Shown: piece after piece, positions 8,034-60,321 of the stretch | Numbering within the stretch: position 1 is the stretch's first letter | How the letters are laid out: each line of letters starts with the position of its first letter | Origin: Ensifer sp. LC11 | GTDB lineage: Bacteria > Pseudomonadota > Alphaproteobacteria > Rhizobiales > Rhizobiaceae | Assembly: GCF_001695835.1 (NCBI RefSeq) | Contig: NZ_MBSO01000023.1 | Coordinates: forward strand, 1 to 64,000 | Reading direction: 5' to 3' | DNA length: 64,000 nucleotides | Notes under the pieces: model-generated | The model's input: only the letters and a program-made list of their open reading frames with translations | The model's database searches: none | Told to the model about the DNA's origin: nothing | Program-made: the position numbers and the translations under genes

Positions 8034-9023
8034 TCAGGAGGCCCGTTGATCCGCAGGAGACGTCAGGCTCCGCGAATGGCTGGGCGGCGCGCCCATGATC
8101 TTGCGGAAGGCGCGGCTGAACGACGCCTCGGAATCGTAGCCGAGACGATTGGCGACATGGGCGACGCGCTTTCCTTCGCGCAGCCACTGATGCGCCTGGT
8201 GCATGCGCATGCGCGCCACGTAACGGGCCGGCGTCTCGCCGACCGTGTCGGCAAAGCGTTGGGCAAAGCCGGAACGGGACGCACCCATGAGCTTTGCCAG
8301 TTCCGGCACGGTCCAGTCCTTGGCCGGATCGAGGTGGATCGCGGCAAGGACGCGGCCGACCTCCGGATGGCGCACCGCCGCCAGCCAGCCGGTCGAGGTG
8401 CCACAGCCATGCTCCACCCACGTGCGGATGATTGTCGCGGTCAAGACGTCGGCAAGCCGCGCCAGGATGCCGCCCGCGCCGACGCGCTGCATCGCCGCTT
8501 CGCGGGTCATGGCGTCGAGCAGCGATGGGATCGACGGCTCGCTGGAGGCGAGATCGCTGGTGCGCATGACCGACGGCATCAGTTGCAGCAGCGGATGCAG
8601 CCGGTCGACGTTGAACTGCATCACCGCGAAAAACAGAAGATTCTGACTGTCCGAATTGGGGCATTGCACGTCGACGATGCCATCGCAAAGCTGCCGCTTC
8701 GGCAGATCGCGGATCGAGATGGCCGGCAGCCCCGGCTTGCTGGCCAGCACATGCGCATCGCCCCGCGGCAAGAGCACGGCATCTCCCGGCGCCAGTTCCG
8801 TCCACGCGCCATCAGGTGTCTGAAGATGGGCCGAACCTGAGGCCAGAAAATGAAATCGCGCGGGCTCTTGCGCGGGATAGGAGGTTGCCCATGGCGCGCA
8901 GGGCTGGCAGCGCCCATATTCAACGCCGTCGAGCCTCAGGCCGCGCAGGATCTCGGTCAGCGCATCGCTCATCTCGCATTCCATCTTTGGACAATCAGCA
9001 CAGTGTTTTGGATTTTCTAGCAT
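8034..9023 (-). CDS. AraC-family transcriptional regulator (cupin_6 + HTH)
   Basis: The N-terminal half (about 25-210) matches the AraC-binding cupin_6 domain (FHFLASGSAHL, LAPGDAVLLPRGDAHVL). The last 100 residues hold two helix-turn-helix motifs (LAKLMGASRSGFAQRF and VANRLGYDSEASFSRAFRK). The gene is divergent from a NepI-like exporter gene, which it probably controls. GGAG is 5 bases before the ATG at 9023; the ATG at 8972 (MSDALTEIL) is where family members usually begin, so the extra 17 residues, containing three cysteines (C8, C11, C16), may not be translated. Confidence 0.85.
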   Translation of the reverse strand: MLENPKHCADCPKMECEMSDALTEILRGLRLDGVEYGRCQPCAPWATSYPAQEPARFHFLASGSAHLQTPDGAWTELAPGDAVLLPRGDAHVLASKPGLPAISIRDLPKRQLCDGIVDVQCPNSDSQNLLFFAVMQFNVDRLHPLLQLMPSVMRTSDLASSEPSIPSLLDAMTREAAMQRVGAGGILARLADVLTATIIRTWVEHGCGTSTGWLAAVRHPEVGRVLAAIHLDPAKDWTVPELAKLMGASRSGFAQRFADTVGETPARYVARMRMHQAHQWLREGKRVAHVANRLGYDSEASFSRAFRKIMGAPPSHSRSLTSPADQRAS

Positions 9024-9080
9024 AGAAACTCCAAGGGGCCATGCATATTTTCACCACCACCTGCAATGGAGATGAAAATT

Positions 9081-10283
9081 ATGGATGGTATTATCGCCAA
9101 GCCCACGGGACAGGCGACTGAACGAGACAAGCCGCTGTGGGCTGCCGTCGTTTCGCTGTCGCTCGGGGTTTTCGGCCTGGTCACGGCGGAGTTTCTGCCG
9201 GCAAGTCTTCTGACGCCGATGTCGGCCGATCTCGGCGTGACCGTGGGTGCTGCGGGCCAGTCAGTCACGACCACGGCCGTCGTCGCGGCCATCGCCGGCC
9301 CAGCAATCGTCGTCTACACCGGGCGCTTCGATCGACGGAACGTCCTTCTGGCCCTGACCGCCCTTCTGGTCATATCGAGCCTGCTCGCCGGCTTTGCATC
9401 CAGCCTGCCGATGCTGCTTGCCGCGCGCTTCCTGCTCGGCATCGGATTGGGCGGGTTCTGGGCCCTGTCGCTGGCCCTCGCCATGCGGCTTGTTCCCAGC
9501 CGGCTGATGCCCCGGGCGATGGCGATCATCATGTCCGGCGTATCGATTGCAACGGTCTGTGCCGCCCCTGTCGGCGCCTGGATCGGCGCGACGCTCGGCT
9601 GGCGCTATGCCTTCCTGCTCGCCGCTGCCGTCGGCATCGTCACTTTCGTCGTCCAGGCGCTCACTGTTCCCCGCCTTCCGCCTGTCGGGACGACCGGCCT
9701 CGACACCATCCTCAACGTCTTGAAGCGTCCGGCGATCCGGCTGGGGCTTGCGACGATCCTGCTCGTCGTCACAGGCCACTTTGCCGGCTTTACCTATGTC
9801 CGGCCCTTCCTCGAACAGGTCCCGCAGTTCGGGGTCGAAGCGATCACCGCAATCCTGCTCGCCTTCGGCATTGGCGGCTTCTTCGGCAACATTGCCGGCG
9901 GCTTCCTCGCCGAGCGCAGCACGCGCCTTTCGATGATGTCGGCCGCAGCCGGCGTCGCCGCCACGACCTTGATCCTGGGGCTTGCAGGCGCATTGCCCGC
10001 TGTCGCCATCGTTACGACCGCCGCCTGGGGCTTCGCCTTCGGTGCGCTGCCGGTGAGCGTGCAATCCTTCCTCAGCCGCGCCGCCGGCGATGAGGCCGAG
10101 GGCGCCGGTGCTGCGACGCTCACCACCTTCCAGATCGCCATTTCCACCGGCGCGATCCTCGGCGGCGTTCTCGTCGAACTCCAGGGGCCGGCCGGAGTCT
10201 TCCTGTTCGCCGCTGTTGCGGCAATGCTCGGCACATCGCTCGTGTCGGTCTACCGTGAACGGGCGCTGCAGGCCGCCGAATAG
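9081..10283 (+). CDS. MFS exporter, NepI-like (purine ribonucleoside efflux type)
   Basis: This 400-residue DHA1-type major facilitator has about 12 membrane segments. It is strikingly similar to E. coli NepI near the N-terminus (EFLPxSLLTPM, DLG followed by GxAGQSVT) and in LGGFWAxSxxLxMRLVP, the region linking TM4 and TM5. NepI exports inosine and related purine nucleosides by proton antiport. Start 9081 was chosen because GGAG at 9068-9071 lies 9 bases upstream; the earlier in-frame ATGs at 9066 and 9072 lack such a site. It is divergent from the AraC-type gene. The substrate is inferred only from similarity. Confidence 0.8.
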   Translation: MDGIIAKPTGQATERDKPLWAAVVSLSLGVFGLVTAEFLPASLLTPMSADLGVTVGAAGQSVTTTAVVAAIAGPAIVVYTGRFDRRNVLLALTALLVISSLLAGFASSLPMLLAARFLLGIGLGGFWALSLALAMRLVPSRLMPRAMAIIMSGVSIATVCAAPVGAWIGATLGWRYAFLLAAAVGIVTFVVQALTVPRLPPVGTTGLDTILNVLKRPAIRLGLATILLVVTGHFAGFTYVRPFLEQVPQFGVEAITAILLAFGIGGFFGNIAGGFLAERSTRLSMMSAAAGVAATTLILGLAGALPAVAIVTTAAWGFAFGALPVSVQSFLSRAAGDEAEGAGAATLTTFQIAISTGAILGGVLVELQGPAGVFLFAAVAAMLGTSLVSVYRERALQAAE

Positions 10284-53452: not shown

Positions 53453-55207
53453 ATGAGCCAAACCGGAGCGCCGCTGAGCGAGCGCTTGCATTCCACGGGA
53501 CGCGTTCGAAAAAGAAAGGCAAAGGCACGCATGCCGGATACTGATGCAACCTTGTCTGCTTCAGCTTCAGTGCAAGACCCCGTCACGGCCCGTCCGGACG
53601 AAGTTCTTTCGTTCTATGATGAGGCCTTTCACCTGACCAGTGCTTCGTCGGCACTCCAGGAAACCTATGAGGTCGGCACGCTGGTTGATGCGACCCTGTG
53701 GCATCTCTATCCCGAACTGCTTGCGCCCGCATCCAAGGCAACGGTCGAGACCGTGATCGCGAGCGGGGTGCCGCGGAGCGTCGAAGTCATCGACGCCGCC
53801 ACCAGGTCGCGACGCACACTTCTCGTTTTCCGCGCCATGCGCGGCATCGGTGTGCTCGAAACCAGTGGCCGGTCGACCCGCCGCGAGGTCGGCAGCCACG
53901 GCGAGAGCGAACGGGCGCTGCTTCTGCACCAGGCAACCCACGACGTTTTGACGGGACTGCCCAACCGGCGGCAATTCAGCGACGATCTGCAGAGCATCCT
54001 GCCGACGCCCGGCGAAAAGCTGGCGCTGATGCAGATCGACCTCGACGACTTCAAGCCCGTCAACGATACGCTCGGTCACGGCGCCGGTGACGCTGTTTTG
54101 AAGATGGCGGCCGAACGCATAAGGGGGGCGCTCCGTGACGGTGAGATCGCCTATCGTCTAGCCGGTGACGAGTTTGCCGTCATCCAGCGGCACAGCGACC
54201 AGCCGGCGGACGCCGAATATCTCGCCGAGGCCCTGATCGAGGCGTTCAGCGAACCTTTCACCATCGACGGCATCTCCGTCTTCGTCGGCGCAAGCATCGG
54301 CATTGCCATTGCGCCGAATGACGGAAACGACATTGAGCAGCTGATGAAGGCTGCGGACATTGCGCTTTATGCCGCCAAGAAGGACGGACGGGGCCGGGCA
54401 AAGACCTTCAGCCGTTCCATGCTGATCGTGCTGGAACAGCGCGAGATGTTGCGCCGCAGTCTGCGCACCGCCCTTCAGGACAACCAGTTTTCGATCGAGT
54501 ACCAGCCGCTGGTCGAGCCGCCATTTTCGATCGTCGGCTTCGAGGCACTGGTGCGCTGGCACCACCCGCTGGTCGGCACGATCCCGCCCAACGTCTTCAT
54601 CCCGATGGCGGAATCCGACGGCCTGATGAACGAGATCGGCCAATGGGTGCTGGAGGAGGCCTGCCGGCAGGCCGCAACCTGGCCATCGCATTTCACCGTC
54701 GCCGTCAACCTGTCGCCGGCGGAATTCCTCAGAGAGGGCCTGACGGACCGGATCGCCCAGGCAATCGACATGGCTGGCCTGCGCGCCGACCGGCTTGAGC
54801 TCGAAGTCACCGAATCGGTGCTGCTCGAGCGCACGACCAACAATCTCGACACGCTGAACACACTGAATGTCCTGGGCATTCAGATTTCGCTCGACGATTT
54901 TGGTACTTTCTATTCCTCGCTCAGCTATCTCAAGAACTTCCCCTTCGATACGATCAAGATCGACCGCTACTTCATCAAGGATCTGGAGAACGACGAAAAA
55001 AGCCAGACGATCGTTCGATCGATCATCGGGCTCGCGCATGGCCTCGGAATGCGCGTGACTGCCGAAGGCGTCGAAACGGTCGGGCAGGCCGTCTGGCTTC
55101 GCAAAGAGGGATGCGACCGGCTGCAGGGCTATTTCCTCGGCATGCCGATGCCGGCGGAAGCCATCGGCGCCTACCTTCGACGGTCGTCGGCAATGGCGAC
55201 ACTGTAA
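53453..55207 (+). CDS. GGDEF-EAL cyclic di-GMP protein
   Basis: The 584-residue cytoplasmic protein has an N-terminal PAS-like region (about 40-140), a GGDEF domain (about 155-315; active-site RLAGDEF near 240) and an EAL domain (about 330-575). EAL motifs visible are FEALVRW, NLSP, EVTES, DDFGT, KID and AEGVET. Both domains keep their catalytic residues, so it may make or break c-di-GMP. The usual GTGYSS of EAL loop 6 reads GTFYSS. It is upstream of a partner-switching cluster on the same strand, reminiscent of siaD near siaABC. The start may instead be the ATG at 53531. Confidence 0.88.
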   Translation: MSQTGAPLSERLHSTGRVRKRKAKARMPDTDATLSASASVQDPVTARPDEVLSFYDEAFHLTSASSALQETYEVGTLVDATLWHLYPELLAPASKATVETVIASGVPRSVEVIDAATRSRRTLLVFRAMRGIGVLETSGRSTRREVGSHGESERALLLHQATHDVLTGLPNRRQFSDDLQSILPTPGEKLALMQIDLDDFKPVNDTLGHGAGDAVLKMAAERIRGALRDGEIAYRLAGDEFAVIQRHSDQPADAEYLAEALIEAFSEPFTIDGISVFVGASIGIAIAPNDGNDIEQLMKAADIALYAAKKDGRGRAKTFSRSMLIVLEQREMLRRSLRTALQDNQFSIEYQPLVEPPFSIVGFEALVRWHHPLVGTIPPNVFIPMAESDGLMNEIGQWVLEEACRQAATWPSHFTVAVNLSPAEFLREGLTDRIAQAIDMAGLRADRLELEVTESVLLERTTNNLDTLNTLNVLGIQISLDDFGTFYSSLSYLKNFPFDTIKIDRYFIKDLENDEKSQTIVRSIIGLAHGLGMRVTAEGVETVGQAVWLRKEGCDRLQGYFLGMPMPAEAIGAYLRRSSAMATL

Positions 55208-55353
55208 TCGCGCATCTGTGCGTTGCGCAGCATGCGGCACCACGCAAAGTCTGGGTTGTTTTGGTGCAAAATCACGGGGTTGGGTCGTTAGAAATCATTA
55301 TAGAAAGTGCTTTATGGCCGTGGCAGAGTTCGGCACGCGGAGGACATTGCGGC

Positions 55354-55872
55354 ATGGGTGCTAGTGTCAACAAGACCACGGAAACGGCTTTCGAGCCCTT
55401 GCTTCAGTTCGATATGGAGATGGAAGACTTCCTCTCGGACTGGCACCATTGCGATCATGTCTCGACCTACCTCGCCCGGATGATCAGCCACAACAGGACC
55501 GATCCGGTACGGCATTCGAACTTCTTTTCGTCCGCCCTCAACGAGCTCCTGGAGGTCTCGTTTCGCGGCGGCACCACCGACGGCAAGATCGGCCTGGCAA
55601 TCTATCGCCAGGGCGCCACGGAGCGGGTACAGCTGAGCTTTCCCTGCCCGCCGGGGCAGGCGCGCTTCTATCGCGAGGCGGTCTCGAAAACCCGTGAGAG
55701 CGATGCCCAGGCCCGCTATCTCGACGCCATTTCCAACGACCTTGCTCCCAGCCGGGAATCGGTGCTTCTGGACCTCGCTGTCAACTATGACGCCCGCCTC
55801 CGGCTTGACGAGGATGCGGCTCCGGCCATCACCCTGATCGTGGATCTTCCTCTTGAAGGAATGGTGAGTTGA
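55354..55872 (+). CDS. SiaB/Slr1658-like protein, degenerate kinase-like domain
   Basis: The 172-residue protein has a block NFFSSALNELLEVSFRGG that parallels the N-box region of the protein at 59406 ([10 protein letters not shown]), but the asparagine of the ATP-binding N-box is missing. No G-boxes were seen. It is likely a non-catalytic relative of the SiaB/Slr1658 regulators that act on STAS proteins. GGAGG is 10 bases before the ATG. The next gene starts inside its stop codon region, so the two are coupled. I do not recognise a closer function. Confidence 0.6.
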   Translation: MGASVNKTTETAFEPLLQFDMEMEDFLSDWHHCDHVSTYLARMISHNRTDPVRHSNFFSSALNELLEVSFRGGTTDGKIGLAIYRQGATERVQLSFPCPPGQARFYREAVSKTRESDAQARYLDAISNDLAPSRESVLLDLAVNYDARLRLDEDAAPAITLIVDLPLEGMVS

Positions 55873-57044
55873 TCGCGGCGAGCCTTCCTCAGCGTTTCAA
55901 GGTCGACTTCGATCCCAACAGCCAGATCTTCTCGCTTGCCGGAACGATCCGGCCGCGATCGATCGACGAAATCGCCGAGAGTATCCAAGCGCTCAGGGAA
56001 GCGATCGATACGGTGCGCGGCGTCCTCTACATCGATGTGAAGCGCCTCATCCAGATGAACAACACGGCCTTCCAGGCCTTCATTCGGGTGGCCCTCGACG
56101 CCTGCCGGGAGCGGTCCGACCTGCGCCTGATCGTCGTCACGTCAAGCGTCGTCAGCTGGACGACGCGCATGTTCCGGCACTTGAGCACGATCGAGCCGCA
56201 GATCTCCGTCGAGGTCTATGACTCGATGTTCTATCCCGGCCAGGACTACTTCGAGGACACGAGCTTCATTCCCATCCTGCGCGCCCAGACGAAATTGACC
56301 TGGCGCCACGAGCGCACCATCCTGCCGCGCCACGGCATGCGGCCCGGGATCGCCGTGGCCGACATCTGCTGCGGCATCGGCGATTTCGCCGTGCTCGCGC
56401 AGAAGGAGTTCCAGCCGTCGCGGATCGTCGCGCTCGACCACTCGAAGCCGAGCCTCGCCTATGCCCGCAAGGTGGCCGCCGAGTTCGGCGTGACGGGTAT
56501 CGAATACACCTACGGCGATGCGTCGGAGATGCTGCTTGAGGACAACCAGTTCGACTTCGTGAGCTGCCGCCACTCGCTACAGGTCTTCAATCAGCCGGAG
56601 CTGCTTCTCAAGGAACTCTATCGGATCGTGAAGCCGGGCGGCCGCGTCTACATCACCAACGAGAAGAACTCGCACTGTCTCGGCGAGCCGCGGGCGCAAA
56701 GCATCCAATGGACCTACAATGAGCTCGCGCGGCTTTTGACAAATTTCGAAATAGATGTGGAGTTCGGGCCGAAGAGCCGGCGCTATCTTACCGACACGGG
56801 CTTCGACGACATCCTGGTCGAATCCTTCATGGTCACCAATCTGGACGGGGACCCACAGGATTTCGCCGACATCATCGCCGGCTGGGAGAAGATGTTTGCG
56901 GACATGGCGGTGAGAAACGGCGAAGCACCCGAATTCATAGAGCGGTTCCGCCAGGGCTTCCGGGATCACATCTTCGCTGCACTGCATCCGAAGGGCTATG
57001 CGGGCTGGCCTATCTGGGCAGCGTCCGGGCGCAAACCATTATGA
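55869..57044 (+). CDS. STAS-like domain fused to a SAM-dependent methyltransferase
   Basis: The 391-residue protein begins with an Slr1659/STAS-like domain (about 1-125; IDVKRLIQMNNTAFQAFIRVALDA, with a threonine where STAS proteins carry the phospho-acceptor). It continues as a class I methyltransferase (about 150-385) with motif I VADICCGIGDFAVLA near 168, motif II around VALDHSKPS and a KPGGRVYI post-motif. The TTG start overlaps the previous stop, with GAAGGAA upstream. It lies between a kinase-like and a phosphatase gene, so its STAS part is probably switched by phosphorylation. The methyl acceptor is unknown. Confidence 0.75.
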   Translation: MIAASLPQRFKVDFDPNSQIFSLAGTIRPRSIDEIAESIQALREAIDTVRGVLYIDVKRLIQMNNTAFQAFIRVALDACRERSDLRLIVVTSSVVSWTTRMFRHLSTIEPQISVEVYDSMFYPGQDYFEDTSFIPILRAQTKLTWRHERTILPRHGMRPGIAVADICCGIGDFAVLAQKEFQPSRIVALDHSKPSLAYARKVAAEFGVTGIEYTYGDASEMLLEDNQFDFVSCRHSLQVFNQPELLLKELYRIVKPGGRVYITNEKNSHCLGEPRAQSIQWTYNELARLLTNFEIDVEFGPKSRRYLTDTGFDDILVESFMVTNLDGDPQDFADIIAGWEKMFADMAVRNGEAPEFIERFRQGFRDHIFAALHPKGYAGWPIWAASGRKPL

Positions 57045-59401
57045 ACGCGAGCAATATCCAACGCCCCCGGTTCGGTTTGAGATCCTTTCGAGCCAAATTC
57101 GTGCTGGTCGTCGGCAGCGCCGTGCTCTTCGACCTCTTGCTGACAGGCGGTCTGGCACTCTGGAACGTTCAAAGACTGTCGCGCGACGCGACGACGGAGG
57201 TCGGGCAGGGCCTGCAGAACGCCAACGAAGATTACATGCTCACCTACGCGGAATCGACGGCCGCGCGGGTTAATCTTCTGCTGGGCCAGGTTCACGCCGA
57301 CGTCGCCACGCTCGCGGGCGTGCTCCAGGCGCAGATCGACCGCCCCGTGCGCCGGTCCGACGTCGGTGAGGCACTTGCGCGGCACGCACCGGAATCCGTT
57401 ACCGTCACTTACGATGCCAAAGGTGGGTGGGCGCAGAACCTTCCGGGACCGCTCTCGAGCGTAAGCGTATGGAGTTATCTCCTTGACCCCGACCACCGGC
57501 CACTACCCGAGGTGCAGACCGACATCGAGAACAGCGCCGTTCTCGATCTGGTTGCGCCAGCCCTGCTTGCGCACGGCCGCTCCAAACTGCAGATGTACTA
57601 CGTCGGACCAAAGGAGCGGCCGATCTTGCGGATGGCGCCCTATGCCGATCAGGCGCAGACGTTCGACCGTCTCTACCCCGGTCACAACGAGGCCAACTTC
57701 TGGAACTTCTTCTTCCCCGGCCTCTACGAGTCCTGGGAGGAATGGGCGAAGTCTCCGAGCCTCAGGCCCGTTGCAGCCGATACCACGCAAACGGCACCTT
57801 ATACGGATGCCGCCTCGGGCAAACTAATCGTCAGCTTCTTCCAACCGCTCTGGACGCCCGACCGCAAAGGTGTCGCCGGAGCGACCGGAACCGACATCAC
57901 GCTCGACCAGCTGGCCGAGGTTGTCGAAAGCGTCAAGGTCGGCGACAGCGGCTTTGGCTTCCTGGCGATGTCCGACGGCAACGTGCTTGCGATCAACCCG
58001 GTCGGCGAGAAGGTGATCGGCCTGCAGCGCTCGAGCGACACCGGCGGTCAGGGCGTCACCGGCCTCGAGCGTTCGCTGCGCCGCAGCGTACAGCCCGCAA
58101 TTGCAGAGCTGTCGCTTGGCACCGATGGCGCCATTCAGCGGGTGCTGCTCGACGAGGCTGGTGAAAAGGTCCCCTATCTCATCCTGCTGAAGCAGCTCGA
58201 GCCAGAAAACCTCTGGGTGTCCGGTCCGGTGCGCCGTGAGACCATGTCGATCGGCATCGTGGTGCCGGAGCGGGAAATCTATGCCTCGCTGTTTGCGGCA
58301 CAGGCGAGTATCTCCGAAGCGACGAATCGTATCCTCATCTACCAGATCCTGGCCCTGCTCGCCTCGCTGCTGTTCGTCACGCTTGCCGTGTTCGGCATAT
58401 CCAAGCGCGTGACCCGCAGCATCAGCGCGCTCGCGGGTGCTGCGACGCGCATCGAAGCCAAGGACTATTCGGTCCGCGTGCCGATTACGACGCGTGATGA
58501 GGTCGGTGAAGCGGGCATCGCCTTCAACCGGATGGCGGAAGAAATCAGCTACCACACCGAGAACCTCGAAAACCTGGTTACCGAACGCACCAAACAGCTC
58601 GAGGACGCCAACCACCAGATTTCGACGCTGAACACGCAGCTGCGCAGCGAGAACTTGCGGCTTGGCGCCGAACTCGCGGTCGCCAAGCAGATCCAGATGA
58701 TGGTGCTGCCCAAGGCCGGCGAACTCGCCGAAATCGCCGACCTCGAAATCGCCGCCTATATGCGGCCGGCCGACGAGGTGGGTGGCGACTACTACGATGT
58801 GCTTCGCGATGGCGAGCGGCTGAAGATCGGCATCGGCGACGTGACCGGCCATGGGCTGGAAAGCGGCGTGCTGATGCTGATGGTGCAATCCGTCGCACGC
58901 GCCCTGCAGGAGGCCGGCGACATGGACCCGCAGGAATTCCTCAATCGCCTCAACCGCGCCATCTACAAGAACATCGTGCGGACCAATACCGACAAGCACC
59001 TGTCCCTGGCATTCCTCGACTATGAAGGCGACCGTTTGACGCTGTCGGGACAGCATGAGGAACTCATCGTCGTGCGCAAGGGTGCCGAAGTGGAGCGGAT
59101 CGACACGCTCGACCTCGGCCTGCCGATCGGCCTCGAATCCGACATTTCGCGCTTTGTCGCAACCCGTGAGATCGCTTTCAGCCGGGGCGACATGATCGTG
59201 CTGCACACCGATGGCGTAACCGAAGCGGTGAACGCCAAGGGCGAACTGTTCGGCATTGAACGGCTATGCGCGAGCGCCGGGAAGTTCTACGGACAGAGCG
59301 CCGAGGACGTCAAATCAGGAATTCTCGAAGACCTGATGACGCATATCGGCAAGCAGAAGATATATGACGACATCACGCTCGTCGTCATGAGACACAGGTG
59401 A
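57041..59401 (+). CDS. Membrane SpoIIE/PP2C-type phosphatase with HAMP domain (SiaA/RsbU-like)
   Basis: The 786-residue protein has a membrane segment (about 14-38), a long periplasmic double-Cache-like sensor (about 40-425), a second membrane segment (about 427-448) and HAMP (about 450-500). A coiled coil leads to a PP2C domain (about 570-786) with the metal residues in VGGDYYDV, GDVTGHG, HTDGVTE and YDDITLVV. SiaA and RsbU dephosphorylate STAS-domain proteins. Its start overlaps the methyltransferase stop by four bases, and the candidate STAS substrate is encoded downstream. Confidence 0.9.
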   Translation: MNASNIQRPRFGLRSFRAKFVLVVGSAVLFDLLLTGGLALWNVQRLSRDATTEVGQGLQNANEDYMLTYAESTAARVNLLLGQVHADVATLAGVLQAQIDRPVRRSDVGEALARHAPESVTVTYDAKGGWAQNLPGPLSSVSVWSYLLDPDHRPLPEVQTDIENSAVLDLVAPALLAHGRSKLQMYYVGPKERPILRMAPYADQAQTFDRLYPGHNEANFWNFFFPGLYESWEEWAKSPSLRPVAADTTQTAPYTDAASGKLIVSFFQPLWTPDRKGVAGATGTDITLDQLAEVVESVKVGDSGFGFLAMSDGNVLAINPVGEKVIGLQRSSDTGGQGVTGLERSLRRSVQPAIAELSLGTDGAIQRVLLDEAGEKVPYLILLKQLEPENLWVSGPVRRETMSIGIVVPEREIYASLFAAQASISEATNRILIYQILALLASLLFVTLAVFGISKRVTRSISALAGAATRIEAKDYSVRVPITTRDEVGEAGIAFNRMAEEISYHTENLENLVTERTKQLEDANHQISTLNTQLRSENLRLGAELAVAKQIQMMVLPKAGELAEIADLEIAAYMRPADEVGGDYYDVLRDGERLKIGIGDVTGHGLESGVLMLMVQSVARALQEAGDMDPQEFLNRLNRAIYKNIVRTNTDKHLSLAFLDYEGDRLTLSGQHEELIVVRKGAEVERIDTLDLGLPIGLESDISRFVATREIAFSRGDMIVLHTDGVTEAVNAKGELFGIERLCASAGKFYGQSAEDVKSGILEDLMTHIGKQKIYDDITLVVMRHR

Positions 59402-59405
59402 TCAG

Positions 59406-59966
59406 ATGACCACGCTCTACGGATTGGCGGACCTGACGATCGGTGCCCATCAAAGAATGACGCGGCTGCGCCTCTATGACGGGCCGCTCGATTTGAGCTG
59501 GAAGCACTGCGCGATGGCCTCGGACTTTGTTGCTGAACTTGCAGCATTGCGTTACCGCGCCTCGCGTAACACCTATCGCGAAGTGCGACACAACATCGGC
59601 TATCTGACTAACGAGCTGGTCGAGAACGCGGTAAAGTTCCGCGCCTCCGGCGCCGTCATGGTCGAAGCCGCGCTCGAGGCCAACAGCTTCCGCACGAAAG
59701 TGTCGAATGTCATCGACAATGAAGCGGCGGCCCGCTTCCAGGAGCTGCTTTCCGAGATCGCCGACGGCGATCCCGGTGACCTGCTCATCGAGCGCATCGA
59801 AGCCAACGCAATCGGGCTCGGCAAGACCGGGTCAGGGCTTGGTCTTTTGACGCTGATGAGCGATTATGGTGTTCGTTTCGCTTGGGTTTTTGGTGCCCAG
59901 GGAGACGACGGAGAAACGTCGCTGGAGACCTATGCCTCCATTGCGGTCCCAGACCTCTCGAACTGA
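59406..59966 (+). CDS. SiaB/Slr1658-like GHKL-type kinase (DUF6272-like)
   Basis: The 186-residue protein carries an N-box ([10 protein letters not shown] near 66) and a glycine-rich G2 box ([13 protein letters not shown] near 145), as in GHKL ATP-binding folds. The family includes SiaB, which phosphorylates the STAS-like SiaC. It starts 5 bases after the phosphatase stop and ends 7 bases before the STAS gene. It is the likely kinase opposing the phosphatase. Confidence 0.8.
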
Positions 59967-59973
59967 TGAGCCG

Positions 59974-60321
59974 ATGAATATGGAAAACAAGGACGAAGAA
60001 GAGTATCGCGTTTGGTCCGAGGGCAACGATATCCATTTCGAAGGCACCATGCGGCTGCCGGGCACGGAAGCCTATGCTCCCATCTTCTCGACCGTCATGG
60101 GCGTGCTCGACACCGAGCCTGACCACGTGACGATCGATCTGACCGAATTGCAGTTCCTGAATTCGTCGGGGATCAACCTGCTTGCCAAGCTCACCATCGA
60201 AGCGCGCAACCGGCCGAACGTGCAATTGACGGTGCGCGGAACCTCCGAGATTCCGTGGCAATCGAAATCCCTGCCGAACCTCAAGAAGCTGCATCCGGGC
60301 CTCGACCTCAGGCTTAACTGA
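59974..60321 (+). CDS. STAS-domain protein (Slr1659/SiaC-like anti-anti-sigma type)
   Basis: The 115-residue protein has the STAS core strand [26 protein letters not shown], with the usual phosphorylatable serine in NSSGI (about S60-61), and IRGTS-like [14 protein letters not shown]. It is the probable substrate of the kinase and phosphatase encoded just upstream. The output partner is not evident; the cluster has no sigma factor, and the GGDEF-EAL protein or methyltransferase are candidates. Confidence 0.83.

Follow-up and report, generated by a model that had tools for sequence, protein, structure and literature searches.

Introduction

Partner switches are known mainly for the control of sigma factors, cyclases, and repressors. 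In the SiaABCD system of Pseudomonas aeruginosa, the phosphorylation of SiaC at threonine T68 is kept in balance by SiaA and SiaB (PMC7647112, partial text), and SiaC activates the cyclase SiaD (PMC8457831, partial text). In the CapK/CapS system, the partner of an anti-sigma-factor-like kinase is a STAS-like protein that acts as the effector in its own right, CapS being a DNA-binding repressor phosphorylated by CapK (PMC13373217, partial text). The Slr1658/Slr1659 superfamily is represented in Synechocystis, where cells with a disrupted slr1658 gene recovered less well from iron limitation (PMC7555055, partial text). Here, these systems are compared with a five-gene cassette from Ensifer sp. 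LC11, located in the first 64,000 nucleotides of contig NZ_MBSO01000023.1 (the whole of this stretch is referred to as the window), in which a STAS domain is fused to a predicted S-adenosylmethionine (SAM)-dependent methyltransferase. Judged from sequence comparison and structure models, there is about an even chance that this locus is a partner-switching cassette in which two kinase/STAS pairs act on an enzyme as the output.

Organization and Conservation of the Cassette

All five genes lie on the forward strand. The cassette opens with S58a (55354..55872; 172 amino acids), a protein resembling Slr1658 and SiaB without kinase motifs, which is followed by the STAS-methyltransferase fusion, here termed SMT (55869..57044; 391 amino acids, TTG start), a PP2C-type (SpoIIE) phosphatase with a HAMP domain and a dCache-like sensor (57041..59401; 786 amino acids), S58b, a predicted intact GHKL kinase of the Slr1658 family (59406..59966; 186 amino acids), and STASb, a standalone STAS protein of the Slr1659 superfamily (59974..60321; 115 amino acids). 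The S58a and SMT genes overlap by 4 bases, as do the SMT and phosphatase genes; gaps of 4 and 7 bases separate the phosphatase gene from S58b and S58b from STASb, respectively. Although the longest open reading frame for STASb extends back to 59866, the conserved protein begins near 59974. An initial annotation of the window had described five coupled genes at 55354-60321 following a GGDEF-EAL gene, and each of these reading frames is found where it was placed.

Conservation was assessed in the best 80 of 272 named candidate loci, 18 loci of other relatives, the pSymB locus of Sinorhizobium meliloti 1021 (L118), and the window itself; a set of 102 loci was then formed by adding 18 loci from an order-wide sample and removing 16 same-genus loci (L020-L035). 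All members of the latter set except the window and L118 were chosen for carrying the fusion, and a few genomes entered twice via different collections, leaving 100 distinct fusion sequences. All five genes are present in each of the original 100 loci, L020-L035 included, and in the 18 further loci of the order sample; they keep one strand and one order in 102/102 loci, which excludes a chance arrangement. Named carriers among the best 80 of 272 belong to Sinorhizobium/Ensifer, Rhizobium, Neorhizobium, Pararhizobium, Aminobacter, Phyllobacterium, and Mesorhizobium, with the closest SMT relatives (91-97% identity) in Ensifer adhaerens, E. sesbaniae, and an Ensifer sp.; another three families with SMT come from the order sample. 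The fusion was also found in 120 plasmid records and in 19 of the 101 genomes of a search among relatives (own genome included), and all five genes reside on pSymB of S. meliloti 1021, with the fusion occurring in S. fredii NGR234 as well. The cassette is, by these comparisons, well conserved in its order and present in a model rhizobium. The S. meliloti locus tags are probably SMb20447-SMb20452; the open-licence literature searched makes no mention of these tags.

Co-occurrence was examined by a scan for Slr1658 that did not start from SMT. Among 397 genomes of the order, SMT (at E 1e-40) was found in 21 and Slr1658 in 21, and these are the same genomes, own included, each with one Slr1658 member over the NF047703 cut-off. 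The initial annotation had held that its proposed link would fail if the methyltransferase usually occurred without the switch genes in relatives; the five genes are inherited together, SMT never appears without Slr1658 in the order sample, and the functional link between methyltransferase and switch is stronger than that annotation could know. At the level of the phylum, SMT was found in 6 of 398 genomes, all from the host's family (own included), and Slr1659 exceeded its cut-off in 7 of 299 genomes, namely the same 6 and one other (G503); at E 0.001, Slr1659 matched 26/299 genomes, 19 of these weakly and under the cut-off (best 2.3e-6). The G503 locus (L187, on a 16-kb contig) has the order GGDEF, Slr1658, Slr1659, solute-binding protein, and SpoIIE phosphatase, with no methyltransferase fusion. 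In the samples scanned, SMT is thus a discrete addition to an older kind of switch, observed in this order only and never found without the switch.

In that G503 locus, which has no methyltransferase, the position between Slr1659 and the phosphatase is occupied by a periplasmic-type solute-binding gene (L187 6354-7229; PBP_like_2, 2.4e-24), the presence of which suggests a ligand-sensing input.

The STAS-Methyltransferase Fusion

The N-terminal part of SMT (residues 9-117; 55893..56219) is, on profile, alignment, and model evidence, a STAS domain of the Slr1659 type that is related to the standalone STAS protein. It matches the Slr1659 model NF047705 with 37.5 bits (E = 2.4e-9), under the cut-off of 100, and the match recurs in 29/29 members scanned, which comprise 28 relatives and the member in the window; hhalign pairs it with the standalone STAS at 94.7% (E 6.1e-8), and the AlphaFold2 model places strands and helices in STAS order. 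The STAS character that had been proposed for the N-terminal domain (the first 125 residues) of the product starting at 55869 is supported by these three results. Pfam STAS_2 reaches only E 0.075, under its cut-off, and a structure search with SMT, which covered residues 120-391 only, returned methyltransferase entries and no STAS fold match.

The fused and standalone STAS domains differ at the presumed site of phosphorylation. Residues N65-T66 of SMT (56061..56066) align with serines S64-S65 of STASb (60163-60168), which lie within the motif NSSGIN; both serines are kept in 95/95 standalone STAS sequences. Among 100 distinct sequences of the fused STAS, 35 lack Ser/Thr at both aligned positions. 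The residue found instead is Ala in 22 loci (those that are named being Mesorhizobium or filed beside Mesorhizobium), Val in all 10 loci of two locus families (f23 and f41), Leu in 2, and Met in 1. When compared with phosphorylatable STAS proteins of the SpoIIAA/RsbV kind, therefore, the standalone STAS has the conserved Ser/Thr acceptor and the fused STAS does not.

A conserved linker (residues 118-156; 56220..56336) connects the STAS domain to a class I SAM-dependent methyltransferase domain (residues 157-391; 56337..57041). The proportion of columns at least 95% identical is 54% in the linker, 19% in the STAS domain, and 58% in the methyltransferase; conservation in the linker thus almost equals that of the catalytic domain and points to coupling of the STAS domain with the methyltransferase. 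Residues 117-131 have a predicted local distance difference test (pLDDT) score under 50 in the model. The methyltransferase domain has the class I SAM fold and SAM motifs, and the presumed SAM-binding residues are invariant; it is predicted to be a SAM methyltransferase of the small-molecule type with an intact SAM site. Fold and motifs are shared with 3mgg, GtmA/TmtA, OxaG, and UbiE-like methyltransferases, from all of which SMT differs in being fused to a STAS domain. Against plasmid records, the methyltransferase domain alone matches 276 records; identity reaches at least 60% in 120, the same number as for whole SMT. Among the 50 of these 276 matches that are listed, 22 have at least 73.8% identity (Ensifer, Sinorhizobium, Aminobacter, and Rhizobium) and 28 fall outside the fused family, with no more than 37.4% identity over part of the domain; no free-standing close relative of the domain is among those 50.

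Kinase-Like Proteins, Standalone STAS, and Phosphatase

Because Pfam PF19788 gave no match in the own genome and was equally silent in 14 controls, the NCBIfam models were used for the switch proteins. S58b and STASb exceed the curated cut-off of 100 for NF047703 (the Slr1658 model; 165.9 bits) and NF047705 (131.2 bits), respectively. The N-box Glu-Asn of S58b is kept in 99/99 sequences and the glycine-box pattern in 97/99; S58b is accordingly a predicted intact kinase, with STASb as the putative phospho-acceptor. S58a is related to S58b by sequence comparison and matches NF047703 with 38.7 bits (E = 6.5e-10), under the cut-off, in a match that recurs in 29/29 members scanned (again the window's own and 28 relatives). 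The N-box Asn following NELxE was found in 0/100 S58a sequences and the glycine-box pattern in 1/100, while the fold is of the SiaB/SpoIIAB/RsbW type within the GHKL/SiaB group; by these features, S58a is a degenerate kinase relative that has kept the SiaB fold without the kinase motifs. The phosphatase matches SpoIIE (4.2e-38), HAMP (5.3e-12), and dCache_1 (4.7e-07, below the cut-off of that model) in Pfam, and its core motifs GGDYYD and GDVTGHG are present in 100/100 sequences. The degenerate SiaB-like protein, second SiaB-like kinase, STAS protein, and PP2C phosphatase of the initial annotation are all recovered by these scores and motif counts.

Public annotation treats the cassette differently. 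The genes of S. meliloti RCAM1750 are annotated as methyltransferase, SpoIIE phosphatase, ATP-binding protein, hypothetical protein, and 'UbiE', and the label 'ubiquinone biosynthesis methyltransferase UbiE' is attached to S58a in that genome (L188 9946-10464; CP050512.1) and in a second record (L189 7955-8461; NZ_CP032686.1). A UbiE identity for S58a is contradicted by the profile and fold results.

The GGDEF-EAL Gene and Other Neighbors

The gene upstream of the cassette (53453..55207, forward strand) encodes a GGDEF-EAL protein of 584 amino acids (Pfam GGDEF 3.2e-44, EAL 4.4e-72) and ends 146 bases before S58a in the window. The AGDEF motif is kept in 89/89 and FEAL in 88/89 distinct sequences of this protein. 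It lies upstream on the same strand in 90/102 loci; a match is lacking in 11 stretches (all 10 loci of f23 and f41, and L037) and is on the opposite strand only in another (L055), with the fusion present in each. The gene that had been placed ahead of the operon is there, but, being missing or on the opposite strand in 12/102 loci, it is an accessory gene associated with the cassette and outside its invariant core. The GGDEF protein names in PMC8546604 could not be mapped onto this locus, the sequence record of which carries no annotation.

Several further arrangements were observed. Ensifer aridi LMR001 has the cassette twice, on separate scaffolds (L053 and L055), the second being the locus with the opposite-strand GGDEF-EAL match. 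A second, divergent SpoIIE-type phosphatase gene stands beside the cassette at L150 6323-7207 (Pfam 1.5e-38) and L037 11146-12126 (5.2e-38), with weak opposite-strand phosphatase matches (23-42 bits) also in L149, L151, and L154; the divergent phosphatase of L150 is followed, about 1.1 kb away, by an ImpA/VasJ gene of type VI secretion (8353-10065). Approximately 3.3 kb downstream of the cassette in S. meliloti RCAM1750 (L188 18201-25703) are an AraC-type regulator and a cluster of SDR, GalE, and glycosyltransferase genes, which may resemble the cyclic di-GMP (c-di-GMP)-controlled CuxR/uxs1 region.

Proposed Mechanism and Alternatives

Within the cassette, the methyltransferase is probably the regulated output. 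How it is regulated is a closer question: control through competition for binding, as opposed to phosphorylation of the fused STAS, is a judgment that we hold to be evenly balanced, and the absence of Ser/Thr from 35/100 fused STAS domains together with the missing N-box Asn of S58a favors docking and competition. In the scheme envisaged, a live tier composed of S58b, STASb, and the phosphatase with its dCache-like/HAMP sensor would set the phosphorylation state of STASb, and a dead tier composed of S58a and the fused STAS would form a docking interface holding the methyltransferase, all binding steps being ones that we infer. S58a and/or S58b would grip SMT by its STAS domain and so keep the enzyme in one state of activity; ligand binding to the sensor would activate the phosphatase, leading to dephosphorylation of STASb, which could then compete for the SiaB-like partner or partners such that SMT is released or re-docked and the methyltransferase is switched, in either direction. 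Rephosphorylation of STASb by S58b would reset the switch. A form of this scheme in which a pseudokinase and a phosphorylation-free STAS, together a catalytically inactive duplicate of the switch, hold a small-molecule-type methyltransferase whose release is timed through competition by the live kinase, STAS, and phosphatase is put forward tentatively, with a little less than even confidence.

In an exploratory test, partial correlations of evolutionary distances were computed for 68 representatives in three runs. Those for S58a with the fused STAS (0.47), S58b with the fused STAS (0.38), and S58a with STASb (0.37) were positive in all three runs, and such cross-pair values fit cross-pair contacts weakly. 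Several results weigh against competitive docking, the first of them from this same test: the correlation between S58b and STASb, the presumed kinase and its substrate, is approximately 0; control pairs on the same polypeptide are uncorrelated (fused STAS with linker -0.11, fused STAS with methyltransferase 0.07); and the value for the sensor and catalytic parts of the phosphatase falls from 0.47 to 0.06 without the outgroups. Without the outgroups, other pairs rise, for example the methyltransferase with the phosphatase sensor (0.50). Because the control pairs fail, this evidence is given little weight. Also unfavorable are a Thr at one aligned position of the window's fused STAS, as likewise in 63/100, so that phosphorylation of the fused STAS could operate in Thr-bearing lineages; the conservation of T91 (99/100), S92, and S93 (each 100/100) in the fused STAS, any of which could serve as an unorthodox acceptor; and the unevenness of the SMT model, with mean pLDDT ranging from 78 to 54 across five models.

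In the model of the initial annotation, the two STAS domains are both substrates of S58b, the phosphatase reverses both reactions, and phosphorylation of the fused STAS gates the methyltransferase directly. The kinase and phosphatase motifs are intact in the operon, Thr or Ser occupies one or both aligned positions in 65/100 sequences, including that of the window, and a threonine is likewise the residue on which SiaA and SiaB balance SiaC phosphorylation (PMC7647112, partial text). Nevertheless, 35/100 sequences have no Ser/Thr at either position, so the aligned site cannot be the conserved mechanism, and the adjoining S58a is devoid of kinase motifs; the functional link between switch and methyltransferase that the annotation proposed stands, phosphorylation of the fused STAS does not suit a conserved mechanism, and the model as a whole is considered unlikely. 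An output in c-di-GMP, as in SiaABCD, with STASb controlling the GGDEF-EAL protein and with SMT and S58a as a side branch or switch inhibitor, is regarded as quite improbable. Such an output would accord with the same-strand GGDEF-EAL gene of 90/102 loci and its nearly invariant motifs, with the GGDEF gene that precedes Slr1658-Slr1659 in the fusion-free G503 stretch, and with the activation of SiaD by SiaC (PMC8457831, partial text), but the fusion persists without a same-strand GGDEF-EAL gene in the 10 f23/f41 loci, L037, and L055, among loci that had been picked for the fusion. It is very unlikely that the degenerate pair is a scaffold only, with S58a serving SMT as a dedicated chaperone or constitutive subunit and the active trio directed at another target. 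The exceptionless co-inheritance with that trio makes an unrelated trio improbable, and S58b also correlates with the fused STAS; on the other side stand the overlap of the S58a and SMT genes in the window and the correlation of S58a with the fused STAS, which is the highest over all representatives, albeit 0.31 without the outgroups, where several pairs are higher.

Significance

A cassette apparently controlling a methyltransferase would extend the logic of partner switching to a metabolic-type enzyme; if competitive docking by live and dead copies of the switch is true, partner switching would gate methylation directly, with no sigma factor, cyclase, or DNA-binding protein as its output. 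The side-by-side presence of live and dead kinase/STAS copies also offers a natural case in which to ask what role a pseudokinase plays in partner switching, and the occurrence of the cassette in S. meliloti 1021 and of the fusion in S. fredii NGR234 makes these questions accessible in laboratory symbionts.

Comparison with Known Systems

No described example of a STAS-methyltransferase fusion cassette was found in the open-licence literature, which is not proof of its absence from print. The nearest relatives by profile are the Slr1658/Slr1659 proteins of the NF047703/NF047705 superfamily: S58b and STASb surpass both curated cut-offs, whereas S58a and the fused STAS fall under them and are divergent relatives that the curated rule does not admit as members. 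The stretches from Kovacikia (L220) and G503 (L187) each contain just one pair and lack a methyltransferase fusion; the rhizobial cassette adds a degenerate second pair bearing the methyltransferase. In the Kovacikia minuta stretch (plasmid pA, L220 5216-11202), Slr1658-Slr1659 is followed by a sulfate-permease-family gene and a gene for a STAS and cyclic-nucleotide-binding protein, and a further gene, for a permease-STAS-cyclic-nucleotide-binding protein, lies on the opposite strand ahead of the pair.

SiaABCD resembles the cassette in its sensor-HAMP-PP2C phosphatase, SiaB-like GHKL kinase (the SiaB fold being shared by S58a as well), phosphorylatable switch protein, and nearby c-di-GMP gene; unlike SiaABCD, the cassette has an Slr1659-type STAS in the place of SiaC, two kinase/STAS pairs, and a methyltransferase fused to one of them. 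Membership in SiaABCD was considered and rejected, with scores of 134.1 bits against a curated cut-off of 700 for SiaA, 17.6 against 85 for SiaB, and 103 against 290 for SiaD. The SpoIIAB/SpoIIAA/SpoIIE and RsbW/RsbV/RsbU systems likewise combine a GHKL kinase, a STAS protein, and a SpoIIE-type phosphatase, but the presumed target in the cassette bears its own STAS domain and no sigma factor is among the five genes. In CapK/CapS, finally, the kinase is also anti-sigma-factor-like and the STAS-like partner is also the effector; whereas CapS is a phosphorylated repressor that binds DNA, the effector STAS of the rhizobial cassette has no conserved acceptor and carries a methyltransferase.

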